From the NCBI RefSeq assembly GCF_001719165.1, contig NZ_CP017057.1:3032501-3096500 (forward strand): a stretch of DNA of 64,000 nucleotides, given 5' to 3'. Position numbers and translations under genes: made by a program. The DNA is from Erythrobacter litoralis (lineage in GTDB: Bacteria > Pseudomonadota > Alphaproteobacteria > Sphingomonadales > Sphingomonadaceae). The notes under the pieces are model-generated. The model was not told the DNA's origin and made no database searches. It saw nothing but the letters and a program-made list of their open reading frames with translations. Positions 655-3,392 of the stretch are shown here, one piece after another; position 1 is the stretch's first letter, and every line of letters starts with the position of its first letter.

Positions 655-2589
655 TCAGTCGAAGCCCGCCCCGAACGGCCAGCGCCGCCCGCACACCCCC
701 ATGACCTTGAACAGCAGCCCCATCTGATCATCGGCGGTCAGCCGGGCATGCTGCCGCGCGAGCACTTCGGCCTCGGCCGGGTTCTTGCGCTGCAGCGCCT
801 CCAACCGCGTGTCGATGCCGAGCTGGCGAAGCCATTCGCCCTGTGTCTGAAGACCCATCACATCGGCCCCATGCTTTGAGGCGACCATCTGCAGCAGTTC
901 GAAATCGACATGGGCGGTGAGGTCCGCCTCGCCCGGAGAGCTGAGCACGTCGACCTTTTCATGCGCCCGGATCGCCTGCAGGGTCGAGCCTGCGCGCAGC
1001 TCCTTCGCGCCGTAATCGATGACAAGCGCCGCGCCGCCCTGTTCCTTCAGCCGGGTCGCGATTTCGCCCATGACGGTCACGGCGGCCGGGCTGGTTTCGA
1101 TCATCGTTCCCTGCGCGGCGGTAGCCCAGCTCGGCGGGACGACGGCGTCCATCGGTTTGTCCCCGGCGACGAAGACGAGATCGTCGCCTTCGAGCCCGAC
1201 CATGCGTTCGTGCCAGCCCTGCGCCGAGCGGACGAGCTGGTGGATCGGCAGTGCGTCGAAGAATTCGTTGGCGACGATCAGCAGCGGGCAATCCTCGGGC
1301 AGGGTCGAAAGATCGTCATGATGCGTGCAGCCCGGGAAGGCCTCGCGCTGGATCCTGCGCAGGGCGGGACTGCCCTCGACGAAATGAATTTCCGGTTCGA
1401 GCCCATAGCGCCTCGCTGCCCGCAGCGCGTCGGTCGCCAGAGTGCCCCTGCCGGGGCCGAGCTCGACATAATGGGGCTGCCTCTTGGTGCCCATCTTGAC
1501 CCAGACATCGGCGAGCCACAGACCGATGAGTTCGCCGAACATCTGGCTGATTTCGGGCGCGGTGATGAAGTCCGCATCCTCGCCGAGCGGGTCGCGGCTG
1601 GCATAATAGCGCGCATTGCTCTCGCCCATGTATTGCGCGAGGCTGATCGGCCCGGATTCGCGAATGAGCCGGCGGAAGGTCTTGCCGAGATCCTTTGCGG
1701 CGTCCTGCGCTGCAAGCAGGCGGGCCTTTTCCTCTTCCTCAGCCCTGCGCGCGCTTTCCTCGGCGTCCCTGCGCGCTTTTTCTTCGGCTTCCTTGCGAGC
1801 CTTTTCCTCGGCCTCCTTGCGGGCCTTGGCCTCGGCCTCGCGGCGGGCTTTCTCCTCCGCCTCCCGGCGGGCCTTTTCCTCGGCCTCGCGGCGGGCTTTC
1901 TCCTCCGCCTCCCGGAGAGCCTTCTCCTCAGCCTCCCGCCGGGCCTTCTCCTCCGCCTCGCGGCGGGCTTTCTCCTCCGCCTCCCGGCGGGCCTTTTCCT
2001 CGGCCTCGCGGCGGGCTTTCTCCTCCGCCTCCCGGAGAGCCTTCTCCTCAGCCTCCCGCTGGGCCTTCTCCTCCGCCTCCCGGAGAGCCTTCTCCTCCGC
2101 CTCCCGGCGAGCCTTCTCCTCGGCAAGCTTTCGCGCGCGCTCCTCCGCTTCCGCGCGAGCCTTTGCCTCGGCTTCTTCCCTCGCCTTGCGCTCGACTTGC
2201 GCGCGCCGTCTCGCCTCAGCCTCGAGGCGCGCGCGTTCGGCTGCTTCGGCCCGGTCCTTCGCCTCGGCCTCGGCCCGTCGGCGAACTTCCTCCTCGGCCT
2301 GCTTGCGTGCCTTCGCCTCGGCTGCCACACGGGTGCGGGCCTGTTCCTCCGCCTCCCTGCGCTCGGCCGCTTCGGCACGCTTTCGCGCTTGCGCCTCGCG
2401 CCGCGCCGCCTCGTCCCCGGCGAGCGTCTCGCTCCCGTCAGGCTCGATCAGCAGCAGGCCCCGCGGGCGCCACTCCCTTTCGTTCAGGCGGCCTGGGGAT
2501 CCTTGGCCTTGCCGGTTCCCACCGGCTTCCTCGTCACGGCGTAAAACGTGACAATCAATCCAATCACGATCAGCGGTATCGTCAGCCAT
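655..2589 (-). CDS. MidA-family SAM-dependent methyltransferase fused to a long charged single-alpha-helix-like N-terminal region (start uncertain)
   Basis: The open frame encodes up to 644 residues. Residues about 300-640 are a MidA/NDUFAF7-type class I methyltransferase: GPISLAQYM, then YYASRDPLG, an [12 protein letters not shown] motif, the SAM-binding ELGPGRGTL and NEFFDALP. Family members methylate protein arginine and support respiratory complex I in mitochondria; the bacterial role is poorly known. Residues about 58-298 are almost only A, E, K and R. Fifteen octads on the pattern EEKARREA occupy residues 157-276. No ATG, GTG or TTG occurs in frame between GTG codon 88 (2328) and codon 321, so any canonical start includes the repeat. 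The only ATG (2589) lies 105 bp inside lgt; the repeat's purine-rich sense strand gives many weak SD-like sequences. Confidence 0.75.
1762..2121 (-). repeat. Tandem 24-bp repeat (15 units) encoding octads, with a 120-bp higher-order period
   Basis: Fifteen consecutive 24-bp units encode EEKAxREA octads of the methyltransferase gene. On top of this, the block starting at 1861 is repeated at 1981: about 87 bases match exactly and the remainder differ slightly. This implies recent duplication of a five-unit block. The in-frame length (multiples of 24) keeps the protein frame open. Slippage or unequal recombination is the likely origin, and repeat number may vary between strains. Confidence 0.9.
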
Positions 2590-3392
2590 TGCCCCATCGA
2601 CAGTCCGGTTTCGCGCGCCAGCAGCGCCAGTTGTGGGTCGGGTTCGCGGAAGAATTCGTTAACGAAGCGGGCGATCCCGATGCCCAGCGTGAAAATGCCC
2701 ACCAGCAGCCCGCGGCGATAGCGCGCACGCGTCTTCCAGAACAGCGCGAGCAGCACGACGAGCAGCAGGAGCCCCTCGAGCCCGGCCTGGTAGAGCTGGC
2801 TGGGATGGCGGGCCACTTCGCCAGCGCCTGGGAAAATCATCCCCCAGGCGACGTCGGTCTCGCGGCCCCATAGCTCGCCGTTCACGAAATTGGCGAGGCG
2901 GCCCAGCATCATGCCCATCGGCACATTGACCGCGATGTAGTCGCACACGCGCAGGAAATCGAGCTTGCCGCGCCACGACACGAAACCGATCGCTACAAGG
3001 ACGCCGACGAGGCCGCCGTGGAAGGACATGCCCCCGTCCCACAGCCGCAGCAGCTTCCAGCTGACGAATCCCTCGCCCGAGAAATCGGTGAAGGCGGACG
3101 GGATGCCGGTATCGCCCCCGGTGTAAAACGCCGCATAGCCGAGCCTGCCGCCGATGATGACGCCCAGCGTGCAGTAGAAGAACAGGTCGTCCGCGTGGCG
3201 CTGCGCCATCGGCGCGCCTGGCTGCCTGATCATCTTCGACAGGTGCCAGTAAGCGAAGATCACGCCGATCAGATAGGCCAGCGAATAGAAGCGCAGCGTG
3301 AAGGGGCCGATCGGGATGCCGGGCATGAGGCCGAGATCGGACCAGTAGATCGGATCGGCTGCGCCGCTTGCGGCAAGTATCGACAGCACCAA
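2484..3392 (-). CDS. lgt: Prolipoprotein diacylglyceryl transferase
   Basis: A 302-residue inner-membrane enzyme that transfers diacylglyceryl from phosphatidylglycerol to the lipobox cysteine of prolipoproteins. The LGT signature [14 protein letters not shown] is present near residue 165, with several hydrophobic membrane segments, the conserved GGMSFHGG motif and a C-terminal transmembrane helix. Length matches the family. The start is TTG (3392) or GTG (3389); an AAGAGG Shine-Dalgarno sits 5 or 8 nt upstream, so both are possible. It heads a leftward cluster with the MidA-like and DUF2147 genes; its 3' end overlaps the open frame of the methyltransferase. Several lipoproteins in this window are its presumed substrates. 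Confidence 0.96.

Follow-up and report, generated by a model that had tools for sequence, protein, structure and literature searches.

A charged rod and a conserved tip on the MidA-type methyltransferase of Erythrobacter litoralis, with a probable translation start inside lgt

The window analysed here is a stretch of 64,000 nucleotides of the Erythrobacter litoralis genome. It carries a midA gene in which a conserved tip and a long charged rod precede a methyltransferase part (Table 1). The neighbours of midA are lgt (PF01790) upstream and a DUF2147 gene downstream. The mechanically assigned start of the DUF2147 reading frame (694) overlaps the end of midA (window 655–694), and the true start of this gene is probably an internal ATG.

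Table 1. Features of the midA locus (positions in the window)
Feature	Position	Strand	Remark
Whole midA reading frame	655..2589	(-)	644 codons and a stop, read from the lgt-internal ATG
Out-of-frame overlap of midA with the 3' end of lgt	2484..2589	(-)	106 nt
lgt, prolipoprotein diacylglyceryl transferase	2484..3392	(-)	PF01790; mechanical start TTG
Tip element a, residues 1-17	2539..2589	(-)	overlaps lgt in the second frame
Tip element b, residues 40-52	2434..2472	(-)	LxL[IV][DE]P, just past the lgt stop
Charged rod, residues 59-297	1699..2415	(-)	single alpha-helix by sequence pattern
15 in-register octads, residues 157-276	1762..2121	(-)	consensus EEKARREA
MidA/NDUFAF7 methyltransferase part, residues 302-644, plus stop	655..1686	(-)	PF02636 over residues 354-579; 1zkd aligned from residue 302
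GTG, residue 88	2326..2328	(-)	start of database entry P0002

The C-terminal part of the product matches PF02636 in a profile search (E 1.6e-54; 185.4 bits against a curated cut-off of 23.3). Its best six Foldseek hits are 1zkd (two chains), 5zu0, 5ztz, 4f3n and 4g67, with 1zkd and the NDUFAF7 homologue 5ztz as the nearest solved structures, and the MidA-type methyltransferase named in the initial annotation is borne out by these matches. Enzymes of this type take part in assembling respiratory complex I. No second PF02636 match is found in the 3.25-Mb single-contig genome. The same genome encodes a NuoD containing GPQHPAAHGVLR, the segment that we take to hold the methylated arginine. According to an excerpt of PMC3829151, the 49-kDa/NuoD subunit of complex I is the usual substrate of the family, and activity of the human enzyme has been reported. 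NuoD of complex I is most likely also the substrate of the rod-bearing MidA.

The rod of 239 residues consists of 93% A/E/K/R/Q and 4.2% ILVMFWY, contains no Gly or Pro, and has a net charge of −2 (median +5 over 77 rod-bearers); about 240 Ala/Glu/Lys/Arg residues had been described ahead of the enzyme, and a rod of this kind is kept in relatives. Nineteen octads stand in one register at residues 133–284, counted at 4 or more of 8 matches, and eight of them are exactly EEKARREA. At 6 or more of 8 matches, the 15 octads originally proposed are recovered. At the distance i,i+4, where opposite charges had been predicted, the 124 charge pairs are all opposite, with no like pair among them (z = 13 relative to 300 same-residue shuffles, a value inflated because the copies of one repeat are not independent). 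At i,i+3, 43 pairs are opposite and 41 alike (z = 0.2), and no excess of opposite charges is seen at distances 1, 2, 3 and 7. In the 75 AEKR rods whose contig includes lgt, this one among them, the counts are 7111 opposite versus 575 alike at i,i+4, and 2123 versus 1547 at i,i+3.

Is this helix a spacer or a coiled coil? A coiled coil that dimerises MidA, or that binds another coil, would find some encouragement in the superficial likeness of this low-complexity helix to coiled-coil repeats and in a Fibrinogen_BP match, which lies below the cut-off. However, few hydrophobic residues are present, the main charge period is 8.09 residues and that of Ala 3.99, no 3.5-residue heptad peak occurs among the periods listed, and composition and periodicity reveal no hydrophobic heptad seam. 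The proline-rich rods of relatives, described below, cannot form a coiled coil at all, and we regard this explanation as very improbable. At the level of sequence, the salt-bridge pattern favours a single alpha-helix over a heptad coiled coil, as the initial annotation had argued, and the rod may be a stiff monomeric single alpha-helix that is unbroken in the cell; as one helix, at 0.15 nm per residue, it would measure about 36 nm. AlphaFold places helices at residues 61–179 and 207–312, in a model (mean 69.3, pTM 0.52, alignment of 30 rows) whose confidence is low in the middle of the repeat, where pLDDT is below 50 across most of residues 172–241, and in the tip (residues 1–47).

At the DNA level, Tandem Repeats Finder detects a 24-nt array in midA, a slippage-prone repeat of 24/48/120 nt. 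Differences between the octad copies fall at codon positions 1, 2 and 3 in the numbers 166, 274 and 658 (all pairs, 19 copies). We rejected the idea that the rod is a common repeat of the genome: an octad query, with 150 of 478 candidates scored, gave no hits at E up to 1 beyond the rod (two matches) and its antisense.

How widely is the rod distributed? MidA matches were obtained in 113 of 114 genomes of the genus, and 101 loci were examined (100 fetched regions and our own locus; the other 12 were left out). A rod was seen in 83 of them, unbroken in 78, interrupted in one (L162), and separated from lgt by the end of the contig in four; the remaining 18 have none. The search of homologues for the same extension thus shows it to be real and in frame. 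Outside the genus, no rod occurs in the 40 family loci fetched, out of 280 matching non-genus family genomes. These loci were mostly picked for long open frames (34 were parsed and six read with a second motif, while G230 was among the long frames left out), and such frames in other genera were discarded as candidate rods, none of the 40 having one.

In a tree of the enzyme part (135 rows, quick method), a single clade with a support of 100 holds the 79 AEKR rows and no rod-less row, and the rod is kept in all 79 genome loci of this helical clade. Just outside it, four rows have the same tip motifs joined to the enzyme by a proline-rich rod, made of Pro/Lys/Glu in L163, L166 and L167 and of (EP)n in L162; together with one short row, L165, they make up a loose group (87, drawn open). 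The L162 rod comprises two (EP)n runs, the second of which is interrupted by a 10-N assembly gap. On this tree, presence versus absence of a rod requires two changes, which may both be gains or a gain and a loss. The stem of the AEKR clade is a long branch (0.24) for the enzyme part, as though the enzyme had changed when the helical rod was fixed.

A second tree, to which 10 unusual database proteins were added, placed all 10 inside the helical clade. Four of them (P0014, P0088, P0053 and P0097) have proline-rich rods, with tip element a recognisable in P0014 and P0088. Four others (P0026, P0036, P0041 and P0091) have just 42–52 residues ahead of the core, and three of these four records start inside the protein. 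Truncated annotation seems to account for P0038 and P0061, the latter of which goes with the rod-bearer L112. Most of the unusual proteins fall around L134 (support 99) and P0053 elsewhere (83); P0014, P0088, P0053, P0097 and P0036 sit near L134 and L099. From these places in the tree we deduced that rod chemistry has switched more than once and that rods can shrink, which strengthens the view of an exchangeable rod and weakens the claim of a required length. We therefore dropped the statement that no rod of the helical clade was ever lost or altered, which is true of the fetched genomes only, since the database proteins show proline-rich and very short linkers. Close relatives whose MidA starts near residue 295 or is frameshifted in the octads, against which the initial annotation had set its reading, are absent from the 79 helical-clade loci, although a few database relatives do have a linker of about 40 residues. 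Among the genome loci, the length after the lgt stop ranges from 85 to 507 residues (median 321), and P0003, with an enzyme part identical to ours, has 7 octads fewer.

Where does translation of midA begin? At our locus the ATG lies inside lgt, and all 79 rod-bearers whose contig includes lgt have such an lgt-internal ATG, the overlaps spanning 85 to 118 nt including the stop. In 14 of the 18 short genus loci, midA starts instead at an ATG overlapping the lgt stop (ATGA). Across 75 rod-bearing loci the codon at this site is never ATG or GTG; it is CTG in 44, CTA in 14, GTA in 11, TTA in 4 and TTG in 2. A CTG start at the ancestral NTGA site was set aside because the codon varies in this way among rod-bearers. 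The ordinary ATGA start is read as ancestral and is gone in rod-bearers, in which translation of midA most likely starts at the lgt-internal ATG.

Three lines of evidence bear on this start. First, the lgt-internal ATG exists only because the Gln codon of the lgt segment G-Q-W is CAA, which holds for 79/79 rod-bearers, 13/18 short genus loci and 6/34 short family loci; at the other Gln codons in the aligned lgt part of rod-bearers, CAA makes up 139 of 340. Second, within the overlap each third codon position of lgt is a first codon position of midA, and we scored synonymous variation in 20-codon windows. In rod-bearers, the six least variable of 181 lgt windows start no more than five codons from the G-Q-W Gln, and in the two short groups the matching window comes at rank 132 of 181 and 113 of 180 (counting from 0). 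Synonymous sites in about the first 20 lgt codons of the overlap are under constraint in rod-bearers and not in rod-less relatives. For the overlap as a whole, the mean drop is modest (0.36 versus 0.43 upstream; fourfold sites 0.41 versus 0.46), since its distal part varies freely. At single bases, the contrast is strong at M1, T5, W10, D12, C13 and R17, weaker at D9 and A6, and missing at D3 and L16; third-base contrasts at T5, W10, D12, C13 and R17 give Fisher p values of 2e-10 to 8e-21, which ignore relatedness. Third, other start codons are scarce. The residue-88 GTG is the only other in-frame ATG, GTG or TTG between the lgt-internal ATG and the enzyme core at our locus, and P0002, the 557-residue database entry for this genome, begins there; several rod-bearers (L084, L087, L095, L099 and L118) list no other start codon ahead of the enzyme. 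Among the 120 database homologues listed, the pattern puts the start of 43 at the tip, or 44 with P0014, and the other 76 begin elsewhere, some being fragments, which suggests that many database entries for rod-bearing MidA carry a wrong start.

The constraint on lgt might alternatively reflect a promoter or RNA element for midA, with translation starting further down. Bases upstream of the ATG are constrained too, and CTATCG stands just upstream of it in 63/79 rod-bearers versus 0/18 short genus loci. Yet our own locus lacks CTATCG and has the ATG, which is universal among the rod-bearers; in the several rod-bearers named above, no other start codon is listed before the enzyme; and the variation left in the tip is often mild for the peptide (T/S5, I/V11). 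We consider this explanation rather improbable as an account of the constraint. A GGCTGACTTT-like stretch occurs about 20 nt before CTATCG (window 2590–2640 on the minus strand and the equivalent in L081–L167), and the two together might form an internal promoter that gives a leaderless midA mRNA. By eye, no clear Shine-Dalgarno sequence precedes the lgt-internal ATG, and a promoter scan for midA gave no match.

Read from the lgt-internal ATG, tip element a is M-A-x-x-[TS]-A-x-x-D-W-[IV]-D-C-x-x-L-R, and M1, A2, D12, C13, L16 and R17 are present in 79/79 rod-bearers. A loose pattern finds element b in 73 of the 79, and it is readable in the other six. By reading, the tip is polar, and no transmembrane helix was seen in our protein. 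An origin of the tip by copying from elsewhere in the genome was rejected, the best other match having an E value of 0.44. There is a faint likeness between element b (LRLI[DE]P) and the first MidA-core helix (FRRLIRETGP), and it is conceivable that element b is a duplicated enzyme start.

How might these parts work together? Because both ends are conserved and the middle is exchangeable, we read the product as a docking tip, a stiff rod and MidA at the far end. We consider it fairly probable that it is a three-part protein of this kind with translation starting inside lgt. The N-terminal tip, some 55 residues long and marked by two short conserved motifs, would dock on a putative partner, and the rod would act as a spacer that determines how far the enzyme reaches, most likely to NuoD in complex I at the membrane. 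If translation starts inside lgt, the DNA that specifies the Lgt C-terminus also encodes, in another frame, the first half of the tip. The conserved tip and the rod suggest that the enzyme works at a distance from its anchoring point, and the rigid spacer to another site that was originally proposed is favoured by the exchange of helical and proline-rich rods together with the conserved tip. The analysis found no docking partner for the tip, whose binding to one is predicted from its conservation, and nothing in it points to Lgt itself as that partner.

Two further explanations make no use of a spacer. The rod might be a neutral or selfish tandem repeat, grown in a permissive N-terminus and translated to no effect. 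The slippage-prone array, the wide range of lengths, the 7-octad difference between identical cores and the linkers of about 40 residues in a few database relatives all agree with this. No fixed reach is kept across these lengths or in the four proteins with 42–52 residues, and it is in this freedom of rod length that the spacer reading is weakest. Nevertheless, the rod persists in every genome locus of the helical clade, the i,i+4 rule holds in diverged rods (7111:575), octad copies differ mainly at third positions, and a constrained tip stands ahead of the rod. Regular replacement by another extended chain, rather than loss, is also unlike a neutral repeat, and we think this explanation unlikely. 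Alternatively, the helix might be an interaction surface for RNA, ribosomes or DNA. It resembles IF-2 (3jcj, residues 11–214, E 1.9e-07), and excerpts of two papers report that a Wolbachia MidA methylates DNA (PMC12455994) and that a single helix of CAF-1 binds DNA (PMC10335832). Against this, the IF-2 match rests on low-complexity sequence, the net charge of the rod is −2 here and its median +5, and proline-rich rods take the place of the helix; we judge such a role to be quite improbable. An exchangeable middle is predicted by a spacer, and not by a coiled coil or a specific binding helix.

The enzyme family and the helix type are each already known. Among the matches listed from an open-licence library, no paper deals with a rod-bearing MidA, its tip, its lgt-internal start or the swaps of rod chemistry. 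One orthologous enzyme here provides a natural series in which the linker goes from none to proline-rich to single alpha-helix and back, its length varying freely while both ends are kept; selection on stiff spacers is therefore testable by rod swapping. The locus also exemplifies how a new protein end can originate within another gene, and its rod-less relatives are available as a comparison.

How does this protein compare with known systems? It shares with MidA/NDUFAF7 proteins (PF02636, COG1565; 1zkd, 5ztz, 4g67) the family match, the C-terminal fold, the single copy and the presence of NuoD. In contrast to the 18 short genus and 40 family loci, which begin near the core, it has about 300 residues of tip and rod before the core. 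In overlapping, dual-coded gene pairs, the second frame appears as a synonymous-site constraint on the first, and the lgt overlap has this constraint; the difference is that here the overlap supplies the tip of the rod protein, where relatives have an ordinary 4-nt ATGA overlap. Single alpha-helix domains are described, in an excerpt of PMC5378345, as having dense i,i+4 opposite charges, few hydrophobics and a linker position. Our rod agrees with such SAH/ER-K domains in these features and in the lack of Gly and Pro, but its octad is almost purely i,i+4 without an i,i+3 signal, and it is carried by a bacterial enzyme, clade-wide and with large variation in length.

The TolA/TonB spacers are similar in that an Ala/Glu/Lys/Arg helix or a proline-rich rod joins two functional ends, both kinds having been exchanged in evolution (PMC12204202, in excerpt). 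Unlike TolA, the rod-bearing MidA has no C-terminal domain III, its C-terminus being MidA, and it carries an enzyme. Membership in the TolA family was rejected, as domain III and, by reading, an N-terminal transmembrane helix are lacking and the TolA equivalog models gave no match for P0001 and scores far below cut-off for P0010 (30.5 versus 213 and 24.6 versus 59.45 bits). The TolA-like character initially proposed thus stands as a way of working and not as a membership. The rod-bearing MidA is presumably cytoplasmic. We tentatively suggest, at somewhat less than even chances, that it is a cytoplasmic counterpart of the TonB/TolA design, in which an enzyme sits on an exchangeable stiff rod, either proline-rich or a salt-bridged single helix, its docking tip having come from a start moved into lgt, with the tip and the C-terminus of Lgt thereby co-coded.
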